Source: Candidatus Margulisiibacteriota bacterium
Lineage (GTDB): Bacteria; Margulisbacteria; Riflemargulisbacteria; GWF2-35-9
Length of the DNA: 59,337 nucleotides
Direction: 5' to 3'
Assembly: GCA_028715625.1 (NCBI GenBank)
Contig: JAQURL010000007.1
Coordinates: 1 to 59,337, forward strand
Every line of letters begins with the position of its first letter. Position 1 is the stretch's first letter. Below are positions 6,857 to 59,337 of the stretch, piece after piece. A model generated the notes under the pieces. It had not been told where the DNA came from, did not search any database, and was given only the letters and a program-made list of their open reading frames with translations. Made by a program: the position numbers and the translations under genes.

Positions 6857-9800
6857 ATGAATAGATTAATATTGTTTAAGGATTACAAGAGAATTTTTAA
6901 AGACGTATTTATTATCTTCCTATTCACTTTGAGCTTTAGCACGGAAACATTGGAAATAAAATCCGGCGCATCTTTACGACAATGGGGTAACGGATGTTGG
7001 GGACCGGGGTCTTCATATAATAACTATAATATAACCGGTAATTATTACCATGACCTAAAATTTTCTACTAATATTCCTGGTAATCGAGGTATCTGGATAG
7101 GACTAATCAACGCTACAGAAAATTATACTCTGGATTTAACAACTTATGACAGAATAAACTTTGATGCCAGAAACAATAACAGCCAAACTATAGTTTATCT
7201 AAAAGACATCAGCAATAACATAACCAATAAAATTTCTTTATATCAACTTTCAGCGGAATATAAAAATTTTACAATATCTGTGAATTCTTTTCTAACCACT
7301 GGTTTTGATATGAAAAAAGTTAAAGAAATACTGTTTGAACCATATTTTAATAATAATTCCGGAACAAATAATTTTATCGCCCGAAACATTAAATTGATAT
7401 CAGATACATTTTATTTAAAAGAAGGGGCTGATAGTGTCCCATGGGGTAACGGGGCCTGGGGTGGTACTTATACATTTTTCCAGATAACACAAAACTTCTA
7501 TCACCAGTTGGAATTTACCAACAGCAATTCCGGCTTCTGGATCGGTATAACACCTTCGAAGAATAAAGATTTGAAACCATATTCCAGACTTTTTTTTCAG
7601 GCAAAAGCCAACAATTCCGAGGCATTGATTTTTTTCAAAGATACAGCCGGAAGAGAATCTTCCAGGTATAAGATTTTTAATATTTCTTCTGATAATTTCA
7701 CGGAGTACGAAATCAGTATGAACTATTTTCTATCCGGGAATTTTAACATAAAGAATGTTTCTGAAATTTTATTTCAGGCCGCTGAACCGCTTTATAACAC
7801 TTCGCAAAAATTAGTTTTGGCTAATATACGTCTTGATAGCAGACAATTAACCACGGGCACATTAAACACCTTGCTTGTCGATGTTTTAAACACACAACAA
7901 TATAAAAATTACAGTCCGCTTATAGGCGGGTTAAATTATAGAAAGCAACTGCAACATTTATGGAACGGTTATAAATATCGATTTATTGATAGTTATAAAA
8001 ATATAGTGGCTCCTAATAAGAATTTGCAAGGCCTGGTCTGGGACACTTATACCGGAATATCACCAACCAAAATAGAAGCAGCGGACATAGCCAAGTCTGA
8101 AGGATCCGGATATGCATTGCTAATGGCTGTTTATATGAATGATCAAAAAACATTTGATGAAATTTTCAGGGCTACCTGGTTGAGCAAAATGCATAAAAAT
8201 ACATCCACAGGTTTGTTCACCTGGAATATTAAAACAGACGCGACATTCCTGGGAAATGATACTAATTCCGCGATAGATGCTGATCAGGATATCGCAATAA
8301 GCCTGATACTGGCAGATACACTTTTAAAGAAAGGTGTCTGGAAAAATACCGGACAAAATTATTATGGATGCGCGCAACAGCTTATTAATGCTATTTATGA
8401 TCAGGGTATTTTATTCGGTATGTTCTTGCTCCCCAGCGACGAAAGTGGCCCGGATGGCAAGGGATTTACTGAAGTTGAGAATGAAACCAATTTGTCCTAT
8501 TTTGCGCCGGCCTGGTATAGAATATTTGACTCTTATGAAGAGATTGACCATGACTGGCAGGCAATTATTGACTGGGGCTATAAGACTATAAATCGGGTGA
8601 ATAAGTATAAAAAGCCTATAGCTCCTGATTGGTGCGATTTCTGGGGTAATAGTCTGGAACAAAAATACTGGTTTTATGCTTATATGCTGGGCAAAGATGC
8701 AATTCGGGTATATTGGCGTCTTGCTACAGATTGGTTATGGTTCGGAGAACCCAAGGCCAGAGATTATTTAACCAGCACCAGACAGCTCTTTCAAGGCTGG
8801 GGAGGCATTTTAAAGCCTGCCGAAATAAAACCTTTGGAGATGAACGGAAGCCTTTCTTATTTAACAAGAGGAAACGCCTTTAATTATACGGATATTTCTT
8901 ATGTTTCCATGTTTGCCGCCGGAGCAATGGGAACAACGGATAATGTTTATCGCAGCCAATGGAAGCTGGCTTATGATGATTATTTGTATTTGGCGCAGAA
9001 CGGGCTGGATTCTTTTTTGGGAGCAAAAAGGCCCGGACAACCTGAAAAAATAGATTTTAACACTAAATATAATTATTACAATCATTGCCTGGGCATTTTG
9101 TCCGGCCTTATGCTTACCGGTTGTTTCCCCAATATTTATCCGGTTAATACGATTATAACTAAAAATATAGATGTCAGCAAAAATCTTAACGCTTACTATC
9201 CTTTTGACGGAGATATTAAGGACAAATCCGGCTATAAAAGAGACCTAAAAGCAAGCGGTACTCTATATTATTCATACCCTGATGCTGTCGCAGGTAAGTC
9301 TTTGAAATTCACTAAACAGCAGTATTTAACAACAAGCAATTTTACAGCAGGCTGGGATAAAATTACTATTTCTTTATGGCTGAAAACTACTGCTCCGTCT
9401 GAGAATTACAAATTAATCAGCACAGCCTTGTGGCCGCCGGGATCAGGGTGGATGCTGGGCACACAATATCCTGAAGCCTGGGCTGAACGTGGAGTGTCTA
9501 TAAGAAAAAACAGCAATTTTAGGCGTTATACCGGATTTGTCGCAAATCAGTGGAACCATCTGGTTTTATCTTACGACCGGACAAATTTTATAGAGTATAT
9601 TAATGGTGAAATTTCTTATGCTGAGAAATTAATTAACGGTCCGAGAATCGGTTCAGGAACAAAACTGATGATTGGAGCCTGGCTGCCTTATACCGCATAC
9701 AACTATTCAGGTTTAATGGACGAAGTAAGAATTTATAATAAGTCTTTGACAGCTTCGGAAGTGAAGACACTTTATTCTTTAAGAAAGCCTAACAATATTT

Positions 9801-10477
9801 CTATAACCGAGGAAAACGGAACGCAGGATTTTTATGAAACAAACTCGTTTAATGTAAGGATATTAGTGAACGGTAAAGTATGTGCTGAAAATGATTTTGT
9901 GCAGAGCAGCCAGCCGGTTATTACTCTAATCGCCGGCAGTGAAGAGGGGCTGATAAAATCATGTCAATTATCGGTTATAAAAGATGGGTTCAATGATCAG
10001 CAAAATATAGAAACTGATGAAATTCAGATCCCACTTGAGCCATCAATAACTATAAATTTGCAGACACCCTGCAAGCTGGATGACGGACGCTATCAGATAA
10101 GCTGTAAGTTAACCGACGGTGATGACCGGATTGCTTACAGTACATCTCCGTATTTTTATGTTCAAGCTTACCAACCCTTAATTGTAACCGGTTCTTTGTC
10201 TGCTCCTAACCCGTTTAACCCAAATACTGAGGTGGCTCATATAGGTTTTAATGTTAACAAGAATTGTACGATAAAGCTGTATATTCATTCATTAAACAGG
10301 GAGCTTGTATATAACAATACTATTATGGCTTCAACCGGTTATAACGAGTTTCTCTGGGATGGATATGATACTTTTCATAAGCTTGTTCCCAGTGGAGGTT
10401 ACTATGCTTATTTAATCGCTGATGATAGCCAGGAAAAAGTAAAAAATCTTATAAAAATTGCAGTGGTAAGAAGGTAA
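6857..10477 (+). CDS. Secreted multidomain glycoside hydrolase family 8 enzyme
   Basis: This 1206-residue protein starts with a probable signal peptide (about 1-32). Two similar beta-rich domains follow (about 35-185 and 188-330; each starts near WGNG.WG and has an FYHQLEF-type strand) and resemble carbohydrate-binding modules. A GH8 catalytic domain spans about 335-765. SEGSGYALLMAV carries the expected proton donor Glu415, and AIDADQDIAISLILAD (Asp474, Asp476) is a close but imperfect match to the GH8 signature. A LamG/concanavalin-like domain lies at about 777-975, and a FlgD-like Ig domain (APNPFNP...WDGYD...SGGYYAYL) at about 1106-1206. GH8 enzymes are inverting hydrolases of beta-1,4 glucans, chitosan or xylan; the substrate here is unknown. 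Start: ATG after AGAGGA. The next gene, a PorV-like barrel, follows after 4 bases. Confidence 0.9.
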   Translation: MNRLILFKDYKRIFKDVFIIFLFTLSFSTETLEIKSGASLRQWGNGCWGPGSSYNNYNITGNYYHDLKFSTNIPGNRGIWIGLINATENYTLDLTTYDRINFDARNNNSQTIVYLKDISNNITNKISLYQLSAEYKNFTISVNSFLTTGFDMKKVKEILFEPYFNNNSGTNNFIARNIKLISDTFYLKEGADSVPWGNGAWGGTYTFFQITQNFYHQLEFTNSNSGFWIGITPSKNKDLKPYSRLFFQAKANNSEALIFFKDTAGRESSRYKIFNISSDNFTEYEISMNYFLSGNFNIKNVSEILFQAAEPLYNTSQKLVLANIRLDSRQLTTGTLNTLLVDVLNTQQYKNYSPLIGGLNYRKQLQHLWNGYKYRFIDSYKNIVAPNKNLQGLVWDTYTGISPTKIEAADIAKSEGSGYALLMAVYMNDQKTFDEIFRATWLSKMHKNTSTGLFTWNIKTDATFLGNDTNSAIDADQDIAISLILADTLLKKGVWKNTGQNYYGCAQQLINAIYDQGILFGMFLLPSDESGPDGKGFTEVENETNLSYFAPAWYRIFDSYEEIDHDWQAIIDWGYKTINRVNKYKKPIAPDWCDFWGNSLEQKYWFYAYMLGKDAIRVYWRLATDWLWFGEPKARDYLTSTRQLFQGWGGILKPAEIKPLEMNGSLSYLTRGNAFNYTDISYVSMFAAGAMGTTDNVYRSQWKLAYDDYLYLAQNGLDSFLGAKRPGQPEKIDFNTKYNYYNHCLGILSGLMLTGCFPNIYPVNTIITKNIDVSKNLNAYYPFDGDIKDKSGYKRDLKASGTLYYSYPDAVAGKSLKFTKQQYLTTSNFTAGWDKITISLWLKTTAPSENYKLISTALWPPGSGWMLGTQYPEAWAERGVSIRKNSNFRRYTGFVANQWNHLVLSYDRTNFIEYINGEISYAEKLINGPRIGSGTKLMIGAWLPYTAYNYSGLMDEVRIYNKSLTASEVKTLYSLRKPNNISITEENGTQDFYETNSFNVRILVNGKVCAENDFVQSSQPVITLIAGSEEGLIKSCQLSVIKDGFNDQQNIETDEIQIPLEPSITINLQTPCKLDDGRYQISCKLTDGDDRIAYSTSPYFYVQAYQPLIVTGSLSAPNPFNPNTEVAHIGFNVNKNCTIKLYIHSLNRELVYNNTIMASTGYNEFLWDGYDTFHKLVPSGGYYAYLIADDSQEKVKNLIKIAVVRR

Positions 10478-10481
10478 TCTG

Positions 10482-11390: not shown

Positions 11391-11441
11391 ACTGTACAGG
11401 TGAGTGTCGGATTTTGTCTTTCAGGTTATAATTTTACAATT

Positions 11442-13930: not shown

Positions 13931-14007
13931 TATGACGAACTTTTTTTAGAATATAATTAATAATTATATATTTATTACGGGAATTAGCAATAAATTTATC
14001 GATATTG

Positions 14008-37516: not shown

Positions 37517-37518
37517 AT

Positions 37519-38346: not shown

Positions 38347-38352
38347 TGAGAA

Positions 38353-40491: not shown

Positions 40492-40500
40492 GAGTATTCC

Positions 40501-43951: not shown

Positions 43952-44527
43952 ATGAAAAGTATAAAAGGCACACAGACAGAACAAAATTTACTTACGGCTT
44001 TCGCGGGAGAATCGCAGGCAAGAAATCGTTATACTTATTTTTCCAGCCAGGCCAGAAAAGAGGGTTTTATTCAAATTTCGCTGATATTTGAAGAAACCGC
44101 AAACCAGGAAAAGGAACACGCCAAACGGTTTTTTAAATTTTTAGAAGGTGGAGAAGCCCAGATAATCGGAACATTCCCGGCGGGTATAATAGGAAAAACA
44201 GCGGATAACTTAAAAGCAGCTGCTGCGGGCGAGGATTATGAATGGGGCACTATGTACCCGGGTTTTGCTGAAGTTGCCAGAAAAGAGGGCTTTGATATCG
44301 TGGCTAAAGCTTTCGAGGCAATTTCCATAGCCGAAAAACAGCATGGCAAACGTTACAAGGAACTGGCTGCCAATATAGAAAACGGTGCAGTTTTTAAAAA
44401 ATCTGACAGCTTAAAATGGCGTTGTCTGAACTGCGGATATATACATGAAGGCAAGGAAGCTCCGGAAGCTTGCCCTGCATGTTTACATCCTAAAGATTAT
44501 TTCGAGATGCTGGGTGAGAACTGGTAA
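43952..44527 (+). CDS. rbr: Rubrerythrin
   Basis: This 191-residue non-haem iron peroxidase reduces hydrogen peroxide in anaerobes. The ferritin-like diiron domain spans about 1-145 (FAGESQARNRYTYFS, FEETANQEKEHAKRF, AISIAEKQHGKRY, holding the Glu and His ligands). The C-terminal rubredoxin domain holds one iron with CLNCGYIHEGKEAPEACPAC. Length is normal. A good ribosome-binding site (AGGAGA) precedes the ATG. It is the first enzyme of the oxygen-defence operon. Confidence 0.97.
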   Translation: MKSIKGTQTEQNLLTAFAGESQARNRYTYFSSQARKEGFIQISLIFEETANQEKEHAKRFFKFLEGGEAQIIGTFPAGIIGKTADNLKAAAAGEDYEWGTMYPGFAEVARKEGFDIVAKAFEAISIAEKQHGKRYKELAANIENGAVFKKSDSLKWRCLNCGYIHEGKEAPEACPACLHPKDYFEMLGENW

Positions 44528-44532
44528 AAAAT

Positions 44533-44603
44533 ACAGAAAACGAAATTTTTTCGTTTTCTGTGCTCAGAGCTCAGAGCTCGGTGCATAGGATCTCGGGGCT
44601 CTG
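44533..44603 (+). promoter_or_regulatory. Two successive hairpins between rubrerythrin and superoxide reductase genes
   Basis: The first hairpin has perfect 12-base arms (ACAGAAAACGAA at 44533-44544; TTCGTTTTCTGT at 44550-44561) with a 5-base loop. The second has arms CAGAGCTC (44572-44579) and GGGCTCTG (44596-44603), pairing with one G-U. A GCTCAGA direct repeat lies between them. There is no T-run after either on the plus strand, so neither is a normal intrinsic terminator. They may instead attenuate or stabilise the mRNA between the genes. Confidence 0.5.
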
Positions 44604-44642
44604 AATTGAGGGACTTTATTAAATATAGAGAGGGGCGTAAAA

Positions 44643-45023
44643 ATGGCAGAATTTCAAGGTGTTTATAAATGTGAATTGTGCGGAAATATTGTTGAGGTAT
44701 TACATTCAGGGAACGGAGAACTTGTTTGCTGCGGGCAACCGATGGTTATGTTAAAAGAAAATTCTGTCGATGCTGCTAGGGAAAAACATGTCCCTGTTAT
44801 AGAAAAAATTGCTGAAGGTTATAAAGTAAAGATAGGCAGTATCCCTCATCCGATGGAAGAGAAACATTATATAGAATGGATAGAGCTTTTGGCAGACGGC
44901 AAAGCATACCGTCAATACCTAAAGCCCGGACAAGCTCCTGAGGCTTTGTTTTGTGTTGAAGCCAAACAAATTACGGCCAGAGAATATTGTAATCTGCATG
45001 GTTTATGGAGGGCAGAACAATGA
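44643..45023 (+). CDS. dfx: Desulfoferrodoxin (2Fe superoxide reductase)
   Basis: This 126-residue protein reduces superoxide to hydrogen peroxide without producing oxygen. The N-terminal desulforedoxin-like domain has CELCG and VCCGQPM, giving four Cys ligands (CxxC plus a CC pair). The superoxide reductase domain has [22 protein letters not shown] and [10 protein letters not shown], giving the four His and one Cys ligands of the active iron. It is therefore the two-iron class. It follows a GAGGGGCG ribosome-binding site and overlaps ferritin by the ATGA at 45020-45023. Confidence 0.97.
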
Positions 45024-45535
45024 TAGATAAAAAAATTCAGAAAGCAATAAACGAACAGATTAATGCTGAAATGTACTCTGCATATCTTTATTTATCAATG
45101 GCAGCTTATTTTGATCATAATAATTTAAAAGGATTTTCAAGCTGGATGCGTGTGCAGGCTATGGAAGAACTCACTCATGCCAAACGTTTTTATGCCTTTC
45201 TCGTTGATAGAGGAGGCAGAGTCAAGCTTGCTGCCATTGATACCCCACCAGCAGAGTGGAATAACCCTCTGGATGTTTTTACGGAAGCGGCCAAACATGA
45301 ACAAAAAGTGACTAAACTTATAAACGGTTTGGTGGATATGGCTATAGAGCTTCACGATCATGCTGCCAACACGTTTCTGCAGTGGTTTGTCAACGAGCAG
45401 GTGGAAGAAGAGGCTTCTGTTGAAGAGGTAATACAAAGCCTAAAGCTTGTTGATAACCAAGCCAGCGGTTGGTTCCTGATAGACAAGGATTTGGCTGCGA
45501 GAACTTTTATACCTCCAATAGGAGTAACTATATAA
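45020..45535 (+). CDS. ftnA: Ferritin (non-haem, bacterial type)
   Basis: This 171-residue four-helix protein stores iron and limits Fenton chemistry. The start [31 protein letters not shown] is typical of FtnA, with the diiron-site Glu in INAEMYS and the E/H ligands in [33 protein letters not shown] is a further family mark. The true start is ATG 45020, overlapping the desulfoferrodoxin stop, with GGAGGG at 45007-45012. An upstream in-frame start at 45005 is unlikely. Confidence 0.95.
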
Positions 45536-45537
45536 TT

Positions 45538-46248
45538 ATGGCAGAAATTCAACGAGAAGTTCTGAATGACATTAGTTACGGCATGTATATTGTCAGCTCG
45601 CAGAAAGAAGGCCGTTATAATGCGCAAATAGCCAATGTTGTGTTTCAGGTAACTTCCGAGCCCATACAACTAGCCCTATGTATCAACAAAAAAAATTTAA
45701 CTCATGAATATATTGAAAGCAGCGGAATGTTCGGCATATCAATCCTGGAGGAAGCAGCGGATATGCCTTTTATTGGTCATTTCGGCTTCAGGTCAGGCCG
45801 TGAGATGGATAAGTTTGAGAAAGTAAATAAATTAATTACGGCTAATAATGTTCCTTTGGTAACTGATTTCGCAATCAGTGTTTTGGAAGGCAAGGTTCTA
45901 AAACAGATAGATGCTGCAAGCCATACATTATTTATGGGAGAGATTGTTTTTTCCAGAAAACTGAAGAGTGCCAGGAGCATGACCTATGCTTATTACCATG
46001 AAATCAAAAAAGGCAAAACAGCCGTAAATGCTCCAACTTATATTAGCCCGGAAACAAAAAATATTGTAAATAAAGGAGGAATGAATATGAAAAAATATGT
46101 ATGCGGAGTGTGCGGTTATATTTATGATCCGGCGGTAGGAGACCCTGATCACGGGGTTCAGCCAGGAACTGCTTTTGAGAGTTTGCCTGACAACTGGACC
46201 TGCCCTGTATGTGGTGTAAGTAAGGACCAGTTTAATCCGGAAGAATAA
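45538..46248 (+). CDS. Flavin reductase / rubredoxin fusion (high-molecular-weight rubredoxin)
   Basis: This 236-residue protein has an FMN-binding flavin-reductase-like domain (about 1-165; [29 protein letters not shown]) and a C-terminal rubredoxin (from Met184; [17 protein letters not shown] and [14 protein letters not shown]). It resembles Hrb of Moorella, which passes electrons from NAD(P)H to a flavodiiron oxygen or nitric oxide reductase. No such reductase is in the window. The ATG at 45538 follows the ferritin stop by 2 bases. A strong internal ribosome-binding site precedes the rubredoxin part (see separate entry). Confidence 0.92.
46073..46089 (+). promoter_or_regulatory. Internal ribosome-binding site before the rubredoxin domain
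   Basis: AAGGAGG (46073-46079) lies inside the fusion gene, followed after 7 bases by an in-frame ATG (46087-46089) that begins [11 protein letters not shown]. This is a near-ideal translation start for a free 53-residue rubredoxin of normal length. The same bases encode linker residues NKGGMN in the fusion. Both products could be made. Confidence 0.6.
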
Positions 46249-46384: not shown

Positions 46385-46412
46385 TAAAACAGATTAATTA
46401 CAGGGGATATTT

Positions 46413-49400
46413 TTGCGGTTAACAAAGTGGAATTTTAATTTGAAAAATAAAAGCATTGCTTTCTTTAAATCTTTTTTAGTTGCAGGCATTTTAATCGGTT
46501 CTTTGGTTTTTGCGGACAATCCTCCGACTGAACCTACTCAGCTTAACGTTAGAGGTCTTATTAATCCTACTTCTTTGACTCCTAATTATGTAAATTTTTC
46601 AGCCAGATATAATGATCTTGATGCAAATGATAGCTGCAAATCATATCGCATCCAGATAGCACCCGGACAAACATTTAATCCGGCCATGGTCCTTTGGGAT
46701 AGCGGGACAGTAAATGTCACGGGAATATTATCAGCAAATACTCAAAGCGCGCTATTGGATTTTTCACCATCCGATTTGCAATGGTGTGTTACATATAGCT
46801 GGCGTATAAGATTTATTGATAATCAAAACAATATCGGGCCCTGGAGCACCGAAAATGTATTTTTTCGTTACAGCGAGGAAATAAAACCTTCATTTCAGGT
46901 AGATATTTCTACAGAGGATTATGACAAATGGTATAAAACAACCGCCAACTGGATGAGCTATATTACGATTAATTTTTGGGATAGCGGAGGGTCCAGCCTC
47001 AATGCTGCCTATTTTGAGTATCCGAATGTTCAACAGACACTAATGCCCGGTGTCTTTAACTTTTTAAATATGACCGCTCATTTTGCTGTAATTTTTGCAG
47101 CGCTAAATGAAGGCAAAAATACAATAAGCATAGGTGTTAGCGACAATGCCGGCAACTTTGTGAGTTCTTCGGTTTTTTATATTGAGAAAGACACAGAACT
47201 GCCGAGTATGAATATTTCAGAAAATTTTTCATCTACATATTTCACCGATTGGCAAACAGCGAATGTCGGTTTCTACGATGTAATCAGCGTAAATTTTTCA
47301 GATTTTTCGGGATCGCATCTGCGAAATATTTATTACGGGGTTTCTTCAAACGGACAGCTTATCTGGACGTCTATAACCACGAATCTTAATCAGAATGTAT
47401 ATAACAGTTTATGGGGCATACCATGGAATCAGTTTAGTGAAGGGACAAATGAAATTTATGTGTCAGCGAACGATTATGCTGCGAATAGTCGTTCATTATA
47501 TCTGGCATCAGTCAAACGTGATTCTGTAGCACCTCAGGTTATAAATAATGTTGATAGCGGAATTTATGTAAATAAATGGTATAACTGGTTTGATCAGTCC
47601 ATAAATATAGATTTTGTCGATACCCAGTCCATGATCCAGAATATAGACTACCTGGTTTCATATAATAATCAATTTCAAAATTCGGTTGTAATAACCAGAA
47701 ATTATTCGAAAATACAATATCAGGATGATTTTTCTATTAATTTTAACTCACTGACAAACGGTGTTAACGAAATTTATGTGTCAGTGAATGATTATGCAGG
47801 CAATAAAGTTTTACAAAAAGCATTTTATCTGCAAAAAGATATTTCCGTACCTATTATACAGAACAATGAGAATTCAGAAGATGTTAAATTTAAACAGTGG
47901 TACAAAGCACAGGTTAGCTGGATGCAAAACATTGATGTTGATTTTAAAGACGAGCAATTTTCCAAACTAAAAAACGTTAAATACGAAATTCAAAACAACA
48001 TAAACGGTGCCCGAGTTATTTCTGATAATTTAAATATATCTTCCTATAATTATAATTGGGGAATACAGTGGAACGACACTATCTCCGGGACAAATAATGT
48101 TTATGTATCGGCTGAAGATAACGCAGGGAACCAGACCAGTCAATATGTTTTTACTTTTATAAAAGATGATCAGCCCCCCCAAATAGCTAATGATATGGGT
48201 GACCCCAATGTTTTATTGGCCTGGTATAACAAAGAACCGGCCTGGTTAAGTGATATCAGCATACATTTTTATGATCCGAATTCAGGTATAAACAATATAG
48301 AATATGCGATCTCTAATAATTCGGGGATTAACTGGCATGATATTTCCCGTAATGTAAAACAAAATACTTATTTAAATAATTGGGGTATAAGCTGGAATAA
48401 CTTAGTTGAAGGATACAACAGTATAATTATTTCGGTAGATGATATTATTACCAATTCTTATACACAGCTGTATTTTACTTTTTATAAGGATACAAATTCT
48501 CCCAATTATAATTGTCAGGAAAATTCGACGGACGCAAAATTTTTGTCCTGGTATCATGAGGCACCGGCATGGCTGCCCAGCATAAACGTTACCTTCGTTG
48601 ATGTCGGCTATTCAAAATTAAAAGATATAACCTACATGGTTTCAAACGGGACGCTGACAACCGGGGTAATAAGCAACGCGACAAATCAGGACGCGTACAA
48701 TACCAAATGGCCGATTGACTGGAGTTTGTTAAAAACAGGAACAAATAATATTATAGTTTCCTTTAATGATAATGCCGGGAATAATCGGACAAGTCCGGTT
48801 TTATTTTCGATTAAAAAAGACCCACTTATTCCTTCATACAGTTGCACGGAAATTTCCAGCGATCCCAAATTTGCCAAATGGTATTCGAATTTTCCAAACT
48901 GGATACAATCTATAACTTATACTTTTTATGATGAAGGTTTCTCTCACTTAAAAGATATATCCTATATTATTTCCAATAATTATACCGGAATTCACGAACA
49001 CTTATTAACAAGTAATTTGGGTAAAGACACATATAGTAAAACTCTTAACGATGTTTTATGGAACTGGATGGACAATGGTGTGAATGAATATGTAGTTTCT
49101 TTTAATGATAATGCCGGGAATACAAAAAATAGTGTTTCCTTTATTATCCTTAAAGATGTACTGCCTCCCTGCTATATTAATGATGAAACAGCAGATTTCA
49201 ATAAATGGTACAATACAAGCCCGGAATGGATGAATCATATCAGCGGGAACTTTGTTGACAGCGGAGATTCCAAACTGAATTATGTCGGCTTTCTGGTCAG
49301 TAATGGAGAAAGCGGAGTTTTTTACAGGGATATTTCCACGAATCTTAATTTAGCATCTTATAATAATAACTGGTCTATAAGTTTTAATGAGTTGGACAAT

Positions 49401-52400
49401 GGAGTAAACAACATTTTTGTTGTTATTTCGGATAATGCTGAAAATTTAGTTAATACTCAAATATTCGCAATCAGAAAAGATATCTTAGTTCCTTCATTCG
49501 CTAATAATATCAGTTATTCAAATGTGTGGGAAAATACACCACCTTCCTGGATATCATCCGTAGACATTGATTTTTTTGATGAGGGACATTCATTATTAAA
49601 CAATCTCGATTACATAATTTCAGCAAACGGTTATCAAAAGACAATAACAATTGCGCATCAGGTGAACGCATATAGTTATCAGAATAACTGGAATATCAGC
49701 TGGAATGATTTGGTAAACGGGACTAATGAAATATGGATATCATTTAACGATAATGCCGACAACCGGACTTTAACCAAGGCCATAGAAGTCTGGAAAGATG
49801 TATTGAACCCGTCAATTGATAACAAAATGATCTTGCCCGTGGCTACATATAATAAATGGTATAACTTTAAACCTGCCTGGGCAGACGCCGTGAGTGTGAA
49901 TTTTTATGATGAAGGTGGATCAAGACTAAAAAATGCCTTCTATGAAGTGGCAAACGGAAGTTCAATAAACTGGTATTTGATCAGCGACCCCATTAATAAT
50001 AATACTTTAAATCAAACCTGGATTATATCATGGGATGTTTTGTACAACGGTACCAATAACATTTATGCCCGGGTATCGGATAATGCTAAAAACGGCAATG
50101 TTTCCTCTCTGCTCTTCTGGATAAAAAAAGATATCATTCCTCCGATTATTTCTTGTAACGAAATATCAATCGATGAAAAATTTTCACCCTGGTATAAGGA
50201 TGCTCCGGAGTGGCTGAATAATATAGATGTCGATTTTGAGGATTACGGATTTTCGAATATCGGAAGTATTTATTATATTGTGGACAGTGTATCCGGTTCT
50301 GCTCGTTATACGATTACAAATAATGTTTCTTTAACCAGCTATTATTCTACCTGGGCTATTTCCTGGAATACATTGGCCAATTGTACCAATAGTATCAGAG
50401 TAGCCGTAAGCGATAATGCCGGGAACGGTGTGATAAGCGATGTTCTGTTTTATATTAAAAAGGATACAATTCCTCCGACATACTCCAATTTGCTTTCAAA
50501 TGTAACGACCGCATCATGGTTAAATAAAGCCCCCTCCTGGTTTTCAGATATTCAAACACAATTTTATGATCAGGACCTGTCCCGATTACAAGATTGCCAA
50601 TATATCATTCTTTATGATGATTACAGTACCAATGAACACCCTTTTTCGATAACCAATAATCCGAATTTGGTTACTATGAACAGCCCTTGGATGATAAATT
50701 TTGATTCTTTAGCCGAAGGTTACAACGAAGTTATGGTGAAAGCCATTGATAATGCAGGCAATACCGTTCAATCACCTACATTTGCTGCTATCAAAAAGGA
50801 TACCATAGCTCCCTATATCATTAACAATGTACCTGCCGATAACCAATGGAATAATTCTGTGCCCGGCTGGTTGTCCGACCTGGATGTAAAATTTGAGGAT
50901 ACAGGTGATGAAGGTAAAATTTCCAATATAAAAGATATCGTTTACAAGATAAAAGCCAATGGTGAATTTATTCAGGAAGTTACCCTGACCAATAATTTGA
51001 ATCAAAAATATTATACCACCTCATGGAATATAACCTGGAGCCAGATTACAAATGGTGCCAATGAAGTCTATATTTCAATTAACGACTATGCTACCAACGA
51101 ACGTTTGGATAAAATATTCACTCTTAAAAAAGATACAATAGCGCCATCATATAATTGCCGTGTCAGCGCTGATTTCAATCTCTGGTACAAAGAAAAAGCA
51201 ACCTGGATGTGGAACCTGGATATAGATTTCTATGATACAGGGAATTCAAAACTGAAATATATTTACTATGGAATCTCAGCAAATAATACGACTAATTATT
51301 ACCTGATTGAAAGTTCGCCTTTAAACCAGGATGAATATACCCCCAGTTGGAGTTTAAATTGGGATTATTTGGATGAGGGTACATCCGATATTTTGGTGAA
51401 AGGCTTTGATTATGCCCAAAACATGGTAACAAGCCCGGTTCTCTTTCATATAAGAAAAGATTCCTTGCTGCCATCTTATAATCTGCTGGAAGATCCATCA
51501 GCCGGCAAGTTTAATACATGGTATGGGCCTGACCCGGGTTTGTTTGAAACTATAAATATTCAAATATTTGATCAGGGATATTCAGGTTTGCAGGATATAG
51601 CGTTTTTAGTGTCGGGTAATAATACTATTAAAGAATATGTTATAACCTCCAATTTAGGTGGGTTATCTATAACAATCAACAGTTTTTCTATTTCCTGGAA
51701 TTTATTGGATCAGGGAATAAATCAAATCAAACTACGTATTACCGATAACGCCGGAAATTGTTTACAGACCCCAATACTTTTTCATATATTAAAAGATACC
51801 ACGGTTCCCAGCGCCAATAATAATGGCAATTATGGCTTTAATCACTGGTACTGCACATCTCCCAGCTGGTTAAGCGCTGTTGATGTAAGCTTTTATGATA
51901 ATGAAGGATCGAAACTGAGCAATGTGTATTACGGTATAGTTACAGAATCAACCAAGTGGGTAGAGATTGCGCATGCTATTGATATGAATGTTTATAACTT
52001 TAAGTGGCCCATTCTCTGGACGGATTTAATTAACGGTACCAATGATATCAAGGTTGCCGCTAAAGATAATGCCGGGAACAGCTTCACGTCCAATGTTTTA
52101 TTTCAGATATTGAAAGATGAAATTCTGCCAACTTTTACCTCCTTAATAGTTGTTCCGGTAGTCAGCCAGAATAAATGGTACAACTATTTCCCCGATTGGT
52201 TAAATACTTTAAATGTAAATTGTTATGATCTTGATTATTCCAATATTAAAAAAATAGAATCCGGCGTTAACAGCACCTGGTATGTTATTACGGACAATGT
52301 GAGGATTCCACAATATCTGGATGCGATCAAAGTATCTCAAAATTATTTGGTCAACGGACAGAATGACTTAAAAGTGCGAATCACTGATTTGGCGGGCAAT

Positions 52401-55400
52401 CAGACCGAAAGCCAGACGTTGGCTTATTTCAGATTGGACAGGGTTGCTCCTACCATCAATATCGGCACACCGATTAATGCCAGCAGCCAGAATGCTTGGT
52501 ATTGCGCTGCGCCAAACTGGTTATCTGATCTGGATATTGATTTTACCGATTTGCTTTATTCAAATTTGTATAAAGCTGAATATCTTGTGTCCAGCAGTCA
52601 GCAAGAATTAAATCCGGTTTTAATAACCCAAAACAGTAATGGTATGATGGGATTTTATGACAAGTGGGCTGTTAACTGGAACTCATTAACCAATGATTAT
52701 AATGACATATTTGTTCGCCTGGAGGATATAGCCGGAAATGTTACAACTACCAATAGTTTATTCCATATAAAAAAAGATGTAATTCCACCTACATATAATG
52801 TCGTGTTCATTCCCTCGGTGGCCAGTCAGGCTATGTGGTATAACTATCAACCATCCTGGCTTACAGAGATTAACGTCCAGGTGTTTGATACCAAGTATTC
52901 TTTATTAAAAAAAGTTGATTACGGAGTAAGTACCGTAAATGGAAATACATCCTGGAAAAACGTTACCACAAACAATCAGGGCACACCGACTTATGACAAG
53001 ATTACCACAATGGACTGGAATTTATTGGCAGACGGAACCAATAATATATTGTTCAGGGCAGAGGACAACGCTGGCAATCGCACAACAATCGATAGCTTAT
53101 TTTTTGTAAAAAAAGATATAACCAATCCTACATATCAATTCAATATGAACATTCCGTCTGTCAGTCAAAATAGCTGGTACTGCGCTCTTCCGGCCTGGGC
53201 TCTGCAAATAAGCGCAAATTTTTTCGACAACATATCAAATTTGCTCAAGGTTGAATATTGCGTTAACAATCAGGATGTAATAACAACAAATATCATAACC
53301 CAGAATGTTAATGGTATAGCTACTTTTAACGCCTTATTTCCCATCAACTGGGATTCTTTGAGTGACGGTATAAATAATATTTATTTCCGCGCTCAGGATC
53401 GGGCCAATAATGTTTTAATTACCAATTTTATGTTTGTTATCCGGAAGGATACCCGATTGCCATCTTATAATGTAATTAGCGATATTCCTGCCATTAGCCA
53501 GAATAGATGGTATAACTATTTGCCGGATTGGGCCCAGTCAATAGAAATTAACTTTATCGATCAGGATTATTCTCATTTGCGTCAGATTGATTACGGTCTG
53601 ATTAACGCCAGCGGAAATATCAAGTATATTACGATTACAAAAAATGATGACGGGTTGGAAACATATACAGAACCATTTGCAGTAAGCTGGAACCAGGTAG
53701 AGAACGGAACAAATAGTATAATCGTCAGGCTTGAGGACAGGGCAGGAAATATCGTTACCAGCAACAGTTTGTTTGTACTCAAAAGAGATTCGGTAATCCC
53801 AAGTTATAATACAGTTAGCCCAATACCACAGGTGAGCCAGAATATATGGTATAACAGACTGCCGAATTGGGCACAGTCTTTGAATTATACATTTTCCGAC
53901 GAGTTTTATTCTCATTTGAAGCAGATTAGATATTATATTATTACAACAAATCCCGAATTGTCCGTCTGGGATAATATTACATCCAATGTTAACGGTGATC
54001 CTTTTTATTCATATACGTGGAGCGTCAGCTGGAATAAATGCGCGGATACAACAAACAATATCTATCTTTATGTAGAAGATAATGCCCAAAACATTATCAC
54101 TTCCGATAAACAATTTATCTTAAAAAAAGATACGATTAAGCCGGTTATAATAAATAATGAAGTTAATACCTTCCAGAACTGGACAAGAACAAGCAGTGAT
54201 AAATTGGGAGATATAGGAGTTTTCTTTAAAGATACATTATCCCACTTGAAAGATATTAAATATGTTATAACCAACCTGGGCAATACAACAACCACCGCTA
54301 TCCTGATGGAGAACGGTAATATTGAGGAATATACTACAAGCTGGTCCATAAAATGGAGTGATCTGGGCGGAGGACTTAATACAGTAAATGTTTTTGTTAC
54401 GGATAACGCCGGCAATACTAATAATCAGCTGGTATTTGTTATAAAGAGAGATGATAAATACCCGGAAATTATTAATAATTTAGTATTATCTGCCGATGCT
54501 CTGAATATGTGGTATAGCGAGGCTCCGGCCTGGATAAACGGTGTGGATGTGGATTTCAGAGATAACGACTCTTTATTAGATGATATTTACTATATGGTCT
54601 CATACAACGGCCAGATACAGAATATTGTTTTAATTAGTCAGAACGTTAATTCAGCCAATTATACAAAAAACTGGCAAATTTCCTGGAGTTTACTGGTTTC
54701 CAAAGACATAAACGATATTTATGTAATGGTTAGTGACAATTGTGGCTGGGTTACCCAGTCTCTATTATTTACCTTGAAGAAAGATTTTATAAGTCCTCAT
54801 CTCGATAACCATGAAAATTCTCAAAATATAACATTCAATACATGGTATAACCAGGATAAAGGGCAGTTTAATAATCTGCAGATTTTCTTCTATGATGCAG
54901 GCAGCGGTCTGAATGATATAAATTATGGTTTGGCTACGAATAACACTACCATATACTGGTATCCGCTGGTATCTAACTATGGTTATTTAACATATAATTC
55001 CGGAGTAAATGTGAGCTGGAACAATTTGAATGAAGGTGTGAATAATTTATTTGTATCTTTTAATGACTACGCTTTGAATACAGTCACTTTGAATTTGGTT
55101 ATACCCTTACGTAAAGATATTACAACACCTGATTATTTTGATAACGGGGGCAGGGATGTTATTTGGCATAATACGGCACCGTCCTGGCTCAGCCAACCGG
55201 GCATTGAATTTCATGACAGAGGTGGTTCAGGTTTAAGGAGTATTTTTTATCAAACAATCCAGAATAGCAACACTGTTAACATATCGACGATATCCGACAA
55301 CATACCGGCCGCATCATTGAATGATTATTTGAATAACTGGAATATCAGCTGGGATCAACTTGCGAACGGCACCAATGATATAAAGTTCATAATCAAAGAC

Positions 55401-58400
55401 AATGCCACAAACGTAAATACAACCGACATAATATTCTCTATCCTTAAAGATGAAATAATTCCTTCCTATTCCTCTCATGAAAACCCGAGTAGTCCTGATT
55501 TTCAGATTTGGTATAGCTTAAAATACAAACCGGATTTTCTTAATCATATATATGTAGATTTTAGTGATGAAGGAGGTTCTCTGCTACAAAACCTTCAGTA
55601 TGTGGTATCAAATAACAATCAGGTATATTCGTATAAAATCAGCTATAACGTGGTACAAAAAATATATACTAATAACTGGCCTATCAACTGGCCTGATTTG
55701 AAAGACGGAACTAACGATATTACCATTAAAATTACCGACAGGGCCAATAACCTGACTACAAGCAACAAACTATTCACAATTTATAAAGATGATATTCCGC
55801 CCAGCTATAACAATATGGAAAACAGTAATTTTGGTGTGTGGTACAGCAATGTAAATTATCCAACCTGGATCGAACATATAAGTGTAACTTTTAATGACAC
55901 AGGATATTCAGGCCTGAACAACATATATTACGGTGTGAAAAATAAAACCGGTTTGTCCTGGTATTTTATAACGGGCAATTTGGTAAGCAAAGAGCAATTT
56001 AACACTCCCTGGGCTATTGACTGGTTAACTTTGACCAACGGGGTAAATGAAATTTATGTCAGTTTCAATGACCGCGCCAGAAATCAAACCTCAAGTTCTG
56101 TTCTTTTCCAGATACTGAAGGATATTATTCCACCGTCGGCCAACAATAATCAGGTGAGCAGTTTTGATGTCTGGTATAATTATAAGCCAGCCTGGATGAG
56201 CCAGATAAATGCCAATTTTTATGATACCGGATCAAGTAATTTAAAAGAAATAGGGTACGGCATTTTATATGATAACCAGCTTTATAATTCCTTTACTATT
56301 TCCAGCGACATGAACAGCGAAGTTTATACAAAAAACTGGGACATTAACTGGAATGCATTAAATGAAGGGACAAGCGATGTGATTGTTATGGCCACAGATA
56401 ACGCCTATAACTCATTTATCAGCAATACGTTTTTCCACATACTAAAGGATACTTTGTCACCGACTATTGATGACCATGAAAATTTAAGCCATGGGGCAAT
56501 GGACCAATGGTATGGTGTTCAACCGGAATGGAGCAAACATCTTAGTATCAATTTTGTTGACCGAGGATTTTCTGGGCTTGTAACAATTTCTTATGTTATA
56601 TCTGACAATGGACATACACCGCTTCCACAGTATTTGTCGACCACCTTGCAGGGTACTACTTATAATCAACTCTGGCAGGTATCATGGCCATCCTTATATG
56701 AGGGTACAAACAATATAAACATTCTATTGTCCGATCGGGCAGGAAACCAGTCAACTTTTAACAATTTGTTTTATATAAGAAAGGATATCTCAACTCCATA
56801 CCTGATAAACAATTTTGCGTTTGATGATAGTAAATGGTATAAGGATGAACCTCTGGTAATCAGGGCCGTAAACATAAATTTCTATGACACATATTCGGGA
56901 TTGAATTCTGTTCATTATATTATTTCCGATAATAACGGATTAAGGGAAAAAACTATAAGTGACAATGTAAATGGCGGTAATATTTACGAACTGCCCTGGT
57001 TGATATCCTGGAATATCCTGGAAAATGGTATTAATGATATTTATGTGTCAGCTAATGATAAGCTGGATCATTTACTTTACAGTTATGTATTTAAGATCAA
57101 GAAAGATATAACTCCACCTTACTTCATAAATTTCGGCAATCCTGATTTGGTCAAATGGTATAACGAAAAACCGCTCTGGATGCAGGAAGTTAACGTTGAA
57201 TTTTACGATCAGGGTGGTTCCTTTATCAAAGATATTTTTTACGTGGTTTCCAATAACGGGACAATTATCAGCAGCGATATAATCAAATCCGGGTGGAACG
57301 CTCCAACGTATTCAAGCGGATTTGATATTAAATGGGAAAACCTGGATAACGGTATCAATTCCATTATTATCAGCATGAATGATAACGCCGCAAATACAAC
57401 ATATAACACGTTATTTAATATCAAAAAGGATATTATCTATCCAGAATTTATTGTCAAATCCAGCCCAACATCTTCTAATATATGGTATGCGAACGCGCCT
57501 TCCTGGTTTAATGCTGTTAATATTGAATTTTCCGATAGTGGTGGTTCACAGCTTAAACAAATAAAATATGGCTTATCAATAAATAACGCTATTTATTATT
57601 GGGAAATAATTACCGATAACAGATCCATTCCATCTTATAATAAGCTTTTTAATATTAACTGGGGGAAAGTTACAGAAGGTGTGAATGACATTATTATTTA
57701 TGTGGAAGACAACGCCGGAAACATTGTTAGTCAAAAAATCGGTTACGTAAAAAAAGATACTTCGGTGCCACGAATAAATAATAATTCTTACGATCTGGTT
57801 CGTTTTAATAGTGAGGTAAAGGGCAGGGGTTTATATAATTTTAACATTACTTTCCTCGATGACATCAAGGGTTCTCCGCTAAATGATATTCAATATATTA
57901 TTTCTCATAATAATATAAAAGATTATAGGTATATTACGCAGAACTATAATTTATTCAGCTACACCAATACCTGGAATATTCCCTGGCAGGTCGTATCCGA
58001 CGGCTACAGTGAAGTTTATCTTTCTTTAAATGACCTGGCCAATAATTTGGGATATTATTATGCGTTTCAGATAATCAAAGACGATTTGCCCCCGGTTGTA
58101 ATTAATAATGATGACAAGCAAAAATATAATGTCTGGTTGAATAATACATATAAACCTGCGGAACTGGACAGTTTAAATATATATTTTGTAGACAGTGGGA
58201 ATGCTAACGTCAATTCCAAGCTGAACGACATATATTACTGCATTTCCAATAATATGTTTGTAACCTGGAACATTATAACTATAAATTATTTACAAAATAC
58301 TTATAATTACGGATGGCGGCTGAGTTGGGAAACTTTAATCAATGGGACCAATGATATTTATGTGTCGGCTAACGATTTTGCCTATAATACAACTTCTATA

Positions 58401-59337
58401 TCTCTATTCACTATTAAAAAAGATACCGTATCGCCCGATTATATAAATCATGAACCTGACTATAATGATGGAAAATTTAAGACATGGTATGGCTCTACAC
58501 CATCTTGGCTGGCTTCGATGGATGTCAGTTTTAAAGATGACGGTTATTCGGGTCTGAACTCAATTTATTATGGAATATTAAATACCCAAAACAGTTTTTC
58601 AATTCAATGGCAGGGTATTTCCAATGATTGCAGGGGAAGCCCAAGTTACAACCTGAAATGGGCCATACCATGGAACACATTAACCAACGGTGTTAGCGAG
58701 ATATATATTTCCCTGAATGATCTCGCCAGAAATAACAGATTGTCCAACGTATTATTCTCGATAAGAAAAGATATTATTCCACCTTATTATATAAATCATG
58801 AAAATCCGGCAAGTGTCACTTTTAATCAATGGTACGGTTCAGACAAATTACTATATCTGGACGTAGACTTTTTTGATGAGGGATTTTCCAAATTAAAAAC
58901 AATTCAATATGGTATATCCAATAATAATAGCCTGAAATGGTTTAGTTTATATAACGAGGTCAGTCAAAACAATATGGTTACTGACTGGACTATTAATTGG
59001 AATAATTGTACGCAAGGAGTTAATGAGATTTACGTCTCATTCAACGATTTTGCCAATAATACTACGACAAGCGGAATATTGTTCACTATAAAAATAGACA
59101 AAACACCGCCTTCATATAATTCGCATGTCACACCCAATTGGCTTTTTAATTATTACAATTTAAAAGGGATAAATGAAGTCGGTCCATATGATGTAGATTT
59201 TTCCGATTCAGGTTTTTCGCATTTAAAAATGGCCTGGTACGGAATATCCTGCAATGGAGATATACAGTGGTATCCAATAACTTCGAATTATATCAGTGCT
59301 GATGCTTATAATGTAGACTGGTTTATATCGTATGATG
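46413..59337 (+). CDS. Giant secreted repeat protein (5' part, runs off the window)
   Basis: One frame is open from TTG 46413, which lies 6 bases after AGGGG, to the window end without a stop: at least 4,308 codons. A second TTG (46440) is an alternative start. The N-terminus is a signal peptide (KNKSIAFFKSFLVAGILIGSLVFA). A fibronectin-III-like domain (about 40-150, with YSWRIRFIDNQNNIGPWST) is followed by about 38 tandem units of about 110 residues. Each unit reads roughly KD-x3-P ... F-x2-WY-x3-P-x-WL-x2-I-x-V-x-F-x-D-x-G-x-S-x-L ... W-x-I-x-W-x2-L-x2-G-x-N-x-I-x-V-x3-DNAGN. Ig-like beta domains are probable (the DNAGN...KD..PP junction recalls bacterial Big/cadherin-like repeats). It is probably a secreted surface or fibre protein. 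No catalytic motif is seen. The C-terminus and any anchor are outside the window. Confidence 0.9.
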   Translation, partial: MRLTKWNFNLKNKSIAFFKSFLVAGILIGSLVFADNPPTEPTQLNVRGLINPTSLTPNYVNFSARYNDLDANDSCKSYRIQIAPGQTFNPAMVLWDSGTVNVTGILSANTQSALLDFSPSDLQWCVTYSWRIRFIDNQNNIGPWSTENVFFRYSEEIKPSFQVDISTEDYDKWYKTTANWMSYITINFWDSGGSSLNAAYFEYPNVQQTLMPGVFNFLNMTAHFAVIFAALNEGKNTISIGVSDNAGNFVSSSVFYIEKDTELPSMNISENFSSTYFTDWQTANVGFYDVISVNFSDFSGSHLRNIYYGVSSNGQLIWTSITTNLNQNVYNSLWGIPWNQFSEGTNEIYVSANDYAANSRSLYLASVKRDSVAPQVINNVDSGIYVNKWYNWFDQSINIDFVDTQSMIQNIDYLVSYNNQFQNSVVITRNYSKIQYQDDFSINFNSLTNGVNEIYVSVNDYAGNKVLQKAFYLQKDISVPIIQNNENSEDVKFKQWYKAQVSWMQNIDVDFKDEQFSKLKNVKYEIQNNINGARVISDNLNISSYNYNWGIQWNDTISGTNNVYVSAEDNAGNQTSQYVFTFIKDDQPPQIANDMGDPNVLLAWYNKEPAWLSDISIHFYDPNSGINNIEYAISNNSGINWHDISRNVKQNTYLNNWGISWNNLVEGYNSIIISVDDIITNSYTQLYFTFYKDTNSPNYNCQENSTDAKFLSWYHEAPAWLPSINVTFVDVGYSKLKDITYMVSNGTLTTGVISNATNQDAYNTKWPIDWSLLKTGTNNIIVSFNDNAGNNRTSPVLFSIKKDPLIPSYSCTEISSDPKFAKWYSNFPNWIQSITYTFYDEGFSHLKDISYIISNNYTGIHEHLLTSNLGKDTYSKTLNDVLWNWMDNGVNEYVVSFNDNAGNTKNSVSFIILKDVLPPCYINDETADFNKWYNTSPEWMNHISGNFVDSGDSKLNYVGFLVSNGESGVFYRDISTNLNLASYNNNWSISFNELDNGVNNIFVVISDNAENLVNTQIFAIRKDILVPSFANNISYSNVWENTPPSWISSVDIDFFDEGHSLLNNLDYIISANGYQKTITIAHQVNAYSYQNNWNISWNDLVNGTNEIWISFNDNADNRTLTKAIEVWKDVLNPSIDNKMILPVATYNKWYNFKPAWADAVSVNFYDEGGSRLKNAFYEVANGSSINWYLISDPINNNTLNQTWIISWDVLYNGTNNIYARVSDNAKNGNVSSLLFWIKKDIIPPIISCNEISIDEKFSPWYKDAPEWLNNIDVDFEDYGFSNIGSIYYIVDSVSGSARYTITNNVSLTSYYSTWAISWNTLANCTNSIRVAVSDNAGNGVISDVLFYIKKDTIPPTYSNLLSNVTTASWLNKAPSWFSDIQTQFYDQDLSRLQDCQYIILYDDYSTNEHPFSITNNPNLVTMNSPWMINFDSLAEGYNEVMVKAIDNAGNTVQSPTFAAIKKDTIAPYIINNVPADNQWNNSVPGWLSDLDVKFEDTGDEGKISNIKDIVYKIKANGEFIQEVTLTNNLNQKYYTTSWNITWSQITNGANEVYISINDYATNERLDKIFTLKKDTIAPSYNCRVSADFNLWYKEKATWMWNLDIDFYDTGNSKLKYIYYGISANNTTNYYLIESSPLNQDEYTPSWSLNWDYLDEGTSDILVKGFDYAQNMVTSPVLFHIRKDSLLPSYNLLEDPSAGKFNTWYGPDPGLFETINIQIFDQGYSGLQDIAFLVSGNNTIKEYVITSNLGGLSITINSFSISWNLLDQGINQIKLRITDNAGNCLQTPILFHILKDTTVPSANNNGNYGFNHWYCTSPSWLSAVDVSFYDNEGSKLSNVYYGIVTESTKWVEIAHAIDMNVYNFKWPILWTDLINGTNDIKVAAKDNAGNSFTSNVLFQILKDEILPTFTSLIVVPVVSQNKWYNYFPDWLNTLNVNCYDLDYSNIKKIESGVNSTWYVITDNVRIPQYLDAIKVSQNYLVNGQNDLKVRITDLAGNQTESQTLAYFRLDRVAPTINIGTPINASSQNAWYCAAPNWLSDLDIDFTDLLYSNLYKAEYLVSSSQQELNPVLITQNSNGMMGFYDKWAVNWNSLTNDYNDIFVRLEDIAGNVTTTNSLFHIKKDVIPPTYNVVFIPSVASQAMWYNYQPSWLTEINVQVFDTKYSLLKKVDYGVSTVNGNTSWKNVTTNNQGTPTYDKITTMDWNLLADGTNNILFRAEDNAGNRTTIDSLFFVKKDITNPTYQFNMNIPSVSQNSWYCALPAWALQISANFFDNISNLLKVEYCVNNQDVITTNIITQNVNGIATFNALFPINWDSLSDGINNIYFRAQDRANNVLITNFMFVIRKDTRLPSYNVISDIPAISQNRWYNYLPDWAQSIEINFIDQDYSHLRQIDYGLINASGNIKYITITKNDDGLETYTEPFAVSWNQVENGTNSIIVRLEDRAGNIVTSNSLFVLKRDSVIPSYNTVSPIPQVSQNIWYNRLPNWAQSLNYTFSDEFYSHLKQIRYYIITTNPELSVWDNITSNVNGDPFYSYTWSVSWNKCADTTNNIYLYVEDNAQNIITSDKQFILKKDTIKPVIINNEVNTFQNWTRTSSDKLGDIGVFFKDTLSHLKDIKYVITNLGNTTTTAILMENGNIEEYTTSWSIKWSDLGGGLNTVNVFVTDNAGNTNNQLVFVIKRDDKYPEIINNLVLSADALNMWYSEAPAWINGVDVDFRDNDSLLDDIYYMVSYNGQIQNIVLISQNVNSANYTKNWQISWSLLVSKDINDIYVMVSDNCGWVTQSLLFTLKKDFISPHLDNHENSQNITFNTWYNQDKGQFNNLQIFFYDAGSGLNDINYGLATNNTTIYWYPLVSNYGYLTYNSGVNVSWNNLNEGVNNLFVSFNDYALNTVTLNLVIPLRKDITTPDYFDNGGRDVIWHNTAPSWLSQPGIEFHDRGGSGLRSIFYQTIQNSNTVNISTISDNIPAASLNDYLNNWNISWDQLANGTNDIKFIIKDNATNVNTTDIIFSILKDEIIPSYSSHENPSSPDFQIWYSLKYKPDFLNHIYVDFSDEGGSLLQNLQYVVSNNNQVYSYKISYNVVQKIYTNNWPINWPDLKDGTNDITIKITDRANNLTTSNKLFTIYKDDIPPSYNNMENSNFGVWYSNVNYPTWIEHISVTFNDTGYSGLNNIYYGVKNKTGLSWYFITGNLVSKEQFNTPWAIDWLTLTNGVNEIYVSFNDRARNQTSSSVLFQILKDIIPPSANNNQVSSFDVWYNYKPAWMSQINANFYDTGSSNLKEIGYGILYDNQLYNSFTISSDMNSEVYTKNWDINWNALNEGTSDVIVMATDNAYNSFISNTFFHILKDTLSPTIDDHENLSHGAMDQWYGVQPEWSKHLSINFVDRGFSGLVTISYVISDNGHTPLPQYLSTTLQGTTYNQLWQVSWPSLYEGTNNINILLSDRAGNQSTFNNLFYIRKDISTPYLINNFAFDDSKWYKDEPLVIRAVNINFYDTYSGLNSVHYIISDNNGLREKTISDNVNGGNIYELPWLISWNILENGINDIYVSANDKLDHLLYSYVFKIKKDITPPYFINFGNPDLVKWYNEKPLWMQEVNVEFYDQGGSFIKDIFYVVSNNGTIISSDIIKSGWNAPTYSSGFDIKWENLDNGINSIIISMNDNAANTTYNTLFNIKKDIIYPEFIVKSSPTSSNIWYANAPSWFNAVNIEFSDSGGSQLKQIKYGLSINNAIYYWEIITDNRSIPSYNKLFNINWGKVTEGVNDIIIYVEDNAGNIVSQKIGYVKKDTSVPRINNNSYDLVRFNSEVKGRGLYNFNITFLDDIKGSPLNDIQYIISHNNIKDYRYITQNYNLFSYTNTWNIPWQVVSDGYSEVYLSLNDLANNLGYYYAFQIIKDDLPPVVINNDDKQKYNVWLNNTYKPAELDSLNIYFVDSGNANVNSKLNDIYYCISNNMFVTWNIITINYLQNTYNYGWRLSWETLINGTNDIYVSANDFAYNTTSISLFTIKKDTVSPDYINHEPDYNDGKFKTWYGSTPSWLASMDVSFKDDGYSGLNSIYYGILNTQNSFSIQWQGISNDCRGSPSYNLKWAIPWNTLTNGVSEIYISLNDLARNNRLSNVLFSIRKDIIPPYYINHENPASVTFNQWYGSDKLLYLDVDFFDEGFSKLKTIQYGISNNNSLKWFSLYNEVSQNNMVTDWTINWNNCTQGVNEIYVSFNDFANNTTTSGILFTIKIDKTPPSYNSHVTPNWLFNYYNLKGINEVGPYDVDFSDSGFSHLKMAWYGISCNGDIQWYPITSNYISADAYNVDWFISYD
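46862..59337 (+). repeat. About 38 tandem divergent protein-coding repeats, period about 330 bases
   Basis: The first unit starts near 46862. The later unit joints, marked by a Lys-Asp (or similar) pair before a Pro, lie near 47187, 47517, 47835, 48172, 48486, 48816, 49152, 49476, 49794, 50127, 50460, 50796, 51128, 51456, 51792, 52113, 52437, 52773, 53112, 53445, 53784, 54126, 54447, 54780, 55113, 55446, 55785, 56118, 56445, 56781, 57102, 57426, 57753, 58077, 58418, 58767 and 59094. Spacing is 314-349 bases, mean about 331. Units share a protein pattern but have diverged strongly in DNA, so the array looks old rather than recently expanded. The last unit is cut by the window edge. Confidence 0.88.

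Follow-up and report, generated by a model that had tools for sequence, protein, structure and literature searches.

Giant surface proteins built from long series of Ig-like repeats are already known, as is the richness of Margulisbacteria in huge proteins. SiiE, the giant adhesin of Salmonella enterica, comprises 53 BIg domains and 595 kDa, and its type I Ca2+ site is formed at the domain interface by D117(n-1) of the preceding domain together with D43 and D97 of the next (PMC5466336). The extenders of RTX adhesins (MhLap, AhLap, MpIBP) are acidic tandem repeats of ~100-residue β-sandwiches, in which Ca2+ bound in the linkers stiffens the rod, and their number varies (5-120), in RtxA between strains (PMC7493085). 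Periscope proteins (SasG, Rib, Sgo_0707) are surface rods of tandem folded domains, with variable number and high repeat identity (PMC8201768). For Margulisbacteria, an enrichment in proteins >5000 aa without assigned function has been reported (PMC11573180). The accessible parts of this and a second source (PMC10066038) describe no family, architecture or repeat conservation for the huge proteins of Margulisbacteria, Omnitrophota and Elusimicrobiota, and the second reports the giants of Velamenicoccia to be poorly conserved.

The window analysed here, 59,337 bp long, is the entire contig C7 of a Candidatus Margulisiibacteriota genome (G000) and ends at the contig end. Its features are collected in Table 1. 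As the first-pass annotation had claimed, one open frame runs off the window: read from the sequence, positions 46413-59336 comprise 4308 codons, and the in-frame stop that it had named as refuting was sought there and not found. At the base composition of the window, the chance of such a frame is ~1e-141. The gene begins with TTG, and its product opens with the leader and the single FN3-like domain that had been described: the hydrophobic stretch FLVAGILIGSLVF, with likely cleavage after VFA, was read by eye, as was the hydrophobic leader that also opens the orthologues. The domain matches Pfam Ig_Rha78A_N just under its cut-off (E 3.2e-5, 24.6 bits, cut-off 27.4).

Table 1. Features of the giant gene and its surroundings; coordinates refer to the window unless a contig is named.
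Feature	Coordinates	Strand	Basis or remark
Exported GH8/BcsZ-like + LamG protein, separate from the giant protein	6857..10477	+	final domain is a distant homologue of the giant protein's C-terminal one
Upstream neighbours: rubrerythrin, desulfoferrodoxin, ferritin, flavin reductase-rubredoxin	43952..46248	+	locus context, no functional part
AGGGGA, Shine-Dalgarno-like, likely ribosome binding site	46402..46407	+	5 nt upstream of TTG; consensus match only
Predicted signal peptide	46413..46514	+	~34 residues; read by eye
N-terminal part of the giant gene	46413..59337	+	first 4308 codons of 16,419; intact orthologues of similar length
FN3/Ig-like domain ahead of the array, residues 41-150	46533..46862	+	Pfam Ig_Rha78A_N
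Array units 1-38 of 64, residues 154-4308	46872..59336	+	unit HMM, alignment, AlphaFold2; unit 38 cut by contig end
Two adjacent units modelled	55785..56444	+	AlphaFold2 pLDDT 95.8, pTM 0.87; Foldseek matches
Exact 127-bp overlap with the start of contig C5	59211..59337	+	in frame; unique in the genome
Downstream genes: hexapeptide transferase, DnaJ-like, CheD, CheR, HDOD, FliM	C5 about 36,500-41,100 (L005 10525-15128)		directly after the giant gene

The final 127 bp of C7 are identical to the opening 127 bp of contig C5 and have no other copy in the genome; an overlap of this length would be what an assembly graph with k=127 leaves at a break. Because it is in frame and unique, we take the full protein to be 16,419 aa long: the frame runs on in C5 for 12,153 codons, with a stop codon directly after C5:36459. 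The first-pass estimate of at least 4,308 residues was right about a giant open frame, but covers only the N-terminal 26% of a protein nearly four times longer, whose C-terminus was reached by following the sequence beyond 59337, as the annotation had proposed. The protein has a mass of 1.86 MDa and is acidic (net charge about -607), and its gene makes up ~1.9% of the genome. No second array was found elsewhere in the genome, and since all of the unit matches listed are confined to C7 and C5, the gene is single-copy.

Behind the leader and the FN3-like domain, the joined protein consists of 64 units (residues 154-7297, by unit HMM), other Ig/FN3-like domains (about 7300-10,800), an array of a ~410-residue multi-Ig module (10,827-13,340; five full copies and a partial one), another repeat region that reaches about residue 15,100 and, at the C-terminus, a FlgD_ig-like domain of ~100 residues. 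Besides chance matches below the cut-offs, Pfam finds no domains other than Ig/FN3 types and the one at the C-terminus; it has no match at residues about 9,600-12,930, and recognises no ligand-binding or catalytic domain anywhere in the 16,419 residues. The diverged repeats at residues about 13,000-15,100 (C5, L004/L005) contain loops such as DKDSKGDGIDPLYGYYD, which resemble Ca2+ loops and are variably kept in orthologues. Loops of the DxDxxGDG type in the same region were considered as Ca2+ loops and rejected, the strict motif being rare and not kept in orthologues.

The ~38 strongly diverged units with a period of ~331 bases that had been counted in the window agree with the 38 units located by the HMM, with their spacing of 110.2 ± 2.4 aa (range 106-116, n=36 complete units), equal to 330.7 bp, and with their mean identity of 33% in protein and 46% in DNA. 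The conclusion drawn from this period, that spacing or shape is under selection, does not follow from it: a constant period of ~110 aa is that of a single folded domain and therefore by itself no sign of selection on spacing. The tryptophan pattern that had been described for the unit is indeed conserved, but D, P, D, S and D rank above the tryptophans. Over 311 units from seven genomes, D3 (301/301), P7 (98%), D97 (303/309) and D40 (298/311; all HMM positions) are conserved ahead of any tryptophan, with W23 at 93% and W81 at 78%.

The units are predicted with high confidence to fold Ig-like, as had been presumed. An AlphaFold2 model of two adjacent units, a step that the first-pass annotation had suggested, yields β-sandwiches (pLDDT 95.8, pTM 0.87), to which Foldseek matches Fn3-like modules of CbhA, BIg domains of SiiE, the extender of MhLap and the HPI S-layer of Deinococcus. 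The whole-query TM-scores of the best matches are low (0.33-0.47), as expected for several domains with differing angles, and we read matches to a predicted model as likeness of fold, not as membership in a family. The ~410-residue module was modelled as consecutive β-sandwich domains (pLDDT 85.2) with SiiE as the top Foldseek match, and structures of MpIBP, MhLap and SiiE are among the fold matches across the two models. Searched as a profile against PDB sequences, the units had no match (best E 0.61). A strong match of the unit to a named domain, sought with Pfam, was not found for single units, which match Big_13 weakly (6/36 at E<=0.01, best E 1.7e-4). The earlier statement that no named domain can be assigned thus holds for units taken singly, but not for the whole protein, which scores 130 bits against Big_13 (cut-off 27); together with Ig/FN3-type extender domains as the nearest structures, this makes the units assignable.

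The D3/D40/D97 pattern of the units (100%, 96% and 98% conserved) matches the type I triad of SiiE, and from this match of conserved aspartates to published SiiE and RTX sites we infer, by analogy, that the triad may bind Ca2+ between successive units. The two proteins share a long tandem Ig-like array, three conserved aspartates, of which one lies at the junction and two within the domain that follows, and a conserved tryptophan in most domains, and solved BIg domains of SiiE are among the fold matches. They differ in that the giant protein is ~3 times larger and has no sequence match to solved structures, and in that a type I system secretes SiiE, whereas the giant protein carries a leader at its N-terminus and a FlgD_ig-like domain at its C-terminus. 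The units also resemble RTX extenders as acidic β-sandwich tandem repeats of ~100 residues; in the extenders linker Ca2+ makes the rod, as it would in the giant protein. RTX adhesin repeats are 65-100% alike within a protein, in contrast to ~33% in the giant protein.

The C-terminal 100 residues match Pfam FlgD_ig above the cut-off, and Por_Secre_tail (E 1.3e-4) and CHU_C (E 2.3e-4) below it. A homologous domain is found in ten other proteins of the genome, 0-17 residues from the stop in each, which suggests a role in sorting or anchoring. The contigs C22, C27 and C2 of the same genome hold ORFs of 6,900, 3,975 and 2,523 aa with this C-terminal domain and without the unit. The similarity to T9SS substrates carrying Por_Secre_tail or CHU_C stays under both cut-offs, and a search of four genomes (G000, G002, G003, G005) for the T9SS translocon SprA had no match, although three Bacteroidota controls matched. 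Pfam recognised no RTX repeats and no T1SS/RTX C-terminus in the giant protein. The Wza-like export protein encoded in the window indicates an outer membrane, and the giant protein points to a sorting route at this membrane other than a SprA-type T9SS. A literature search for Margulisbacteria together with adhesins or type IX secretion found nothing relevant.

With moderate confidence, we interpret the giant protein as a Sec-exported surface rod, rigidified by Ca2+ and sorted by its C-terminal domain, that serves as a tether or adhesin. The leader peptide would direct Sec export, and the aspartate triad would hold Ca2+ between adjacent domains in the manner of the SiiE type I site, giving a stiff rod. 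At ~4 nm per domain, the 64 units would extend over roughly 0.25 µm and the whole protein over 0.5-0.7 µm. The C-terminal domain may guide outer-membrane crossing and anchoring through machinery other than a SprA-type T9SS, and the rod could then touch other cells, surfaces or polysaccharide. The fibre or adhesin role favoured by the first-pass annotation is thereby plausible, but Pfam recognises no ligand-binding domain; because no adhesive domain was recognised, we class the protein as adhesin-like in its working, not as an adhesin.

Among 55 genomes of the phylum, arrays are present in our own, in four others of its family and in two members of another family in that order; the remaining genomes have single or few unit matches or none. 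The unit HMM had no match in 198 Bacteroidota genomes, and the array is absent from G007, which belongs to another order of the same class (63 first-look candidates, one match under 1e-3). This genome has other giant ORFs, of 6,967 and 5,695 aa, on its contigs C26 and C58. With the last 480 residues of the protein as query, orthologues were found in Ca. Margulisbacteria GWF2_35_9, in an uncultured Ca. Marinamargulisbacteria and in a MAG that bears the label Ca. Termititenax sp. The orthologues of G003 (16,438 aa) and G005 (16,989 aa) are single unbroken frames that align to the giant protein along its full length, mostly at 30-45% identity, which supports the C7-C5 join independently. Intact orthologues occupy the same locus in both families: rubrerythrin, desulfoferrodoxin and ferritin are syntenic in G003 and G004, rubrerythrin in G005, and the downstream hexapeptide transferase, DnaJ-like, CheD, CheR, HDOD and FliM genes are syntenic in relatives. 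This downstream region is a motility and chemotaxis neighbourhood.

It is the number and order of the units in these relatives, not their period, that speak for constraint. By unit HMM, the array has 64 units in our genome, 64 in G003 and 63 in G005, in one-to-one register, with one unit near number 53 apparently missing in G005; the contig of G002, which starts within the array, covers units 22-64. In-register unit pairs outscore every other offset by far in G001, G002, G003 and G005 (in-register against mean other-offset scores of 273.1/132.0, 228.0/116.7, 177.5/103.8 and 141.4/95.8, respectively). In each of the four genomes compared, the module array comprises five full modules, mostly in register. 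The lengths of the regions in our genome, G003 and G005 are 7144/7194/7338 aa for array 1, 3529/3577/3730 aa for the middle, 2078/2057/2136 aa for array 2 and 3515/3459/3616 aa for the tail. Across genera and two families, at ~35% protein identity, the size of the protein is kept within 3.5% and the repeat number within one. This fixed number sets the protein apart from RTX adhesins; periscope proteins are its opposite in both number and repeat identity, and its conservation across families differs from what is reported for the Velamenicoccia giants. As far as our tools show, the protein family, its architecture and its conserved unit number and order are new, and they provide a worked architecture for one of the uncharacterised huge proteins in which Margulisbacteria are rich.

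The copy number may have been frozen passively, without selection on length, since units so diverged would no longer slip or recombine unequally, and we give this an even chance. The low DNA identity among the units (maximum 56%) means that a freeze may arise without selection on reach, and variable surface rods change their number most where the repeats are most identical (PMC8201768). The unit apparently lost in G005 speaks against a passive freeze, as it indicates that changes in number do occur; at such divergence one would also expect large deletions, unless selection removes them. A passive freeze is compatible with the surface rod and bears only on the reason for the frozen number. More tentatively, and with considerable doubt, we suggest that the protein is a molecular tether defining its lineage, selected for its length, whose 64 distinct units and five modules were fixed before the families split, and which is exported by an uncharacterised non-T9SS route through the FlgD_ig-like domain found in at least 11 proteins. 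Each unit would then have kept its own identity since before the split of the two families. Surface-rod repeat proteins usually change length fast, and the giant protein offers a clean case in which to ask whether reach itself is under selection.

Alternatively, the protein could be a structural coat, an S-layer-like or matrix protein packed laterally around the cell, with its length providing thickness or coverage instead of reach. We consider this rather unlikely. The lack of a recognised adhesive tip domain, the Deinococcus HPI S-layer among the fold matches and the large exopolysaccharide cluster adjoining the gene would fit a coat, but no S-layer anchoring domain was found, and the putative Ca2+ triad and the fold fit extender rods at least equally well. 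To our knowledge, a single chain of the giant protein is also far longer than known S-layer subunits. It is very improbable that the Ig array scaffolds a catalytic part in an enzyme-bearing or predation protein, as proposed for some giants of Omnitrophota. A giant protein of Velamenicoccus has been proposed to break down surface polysaccharides of target cells (PMC10066038), and the GH8/LamG protein of our genome has the same C-terminal domain as the giant protein; yet the latter is devoid of any catalytic Pfam domain, and its Pfam-blank residues about 9,600-12,930 are predicted to fold as Ig-like modules. Finally, a wrong frame or C7-C5 join is hardly credible even in a genome of 127 contigs with the gene split across two, as separate assemblies show a single unbroken frame with the same length, order and flanks, the units are too diverged for an assembler to confuse, and the unique overlap and intact orthologue frames rule out an artefact.

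The exopolysaccharide cluster upstream of the giant gene occupies positions 12503-41466 of the window and encodes Wza-, Wzc/GNVR- and WcaJ-like proteins and many glycosyltransferases. Two of its proteins are fusions, one of a sugar-transferase N-part/VanZ with GT4 (14008-15924) and one of GT2 with GT4 (30904-32832). Among the co-directional genes at the contig start, positions 2313-4034 encode subunit A of a V-type ATP synthase.
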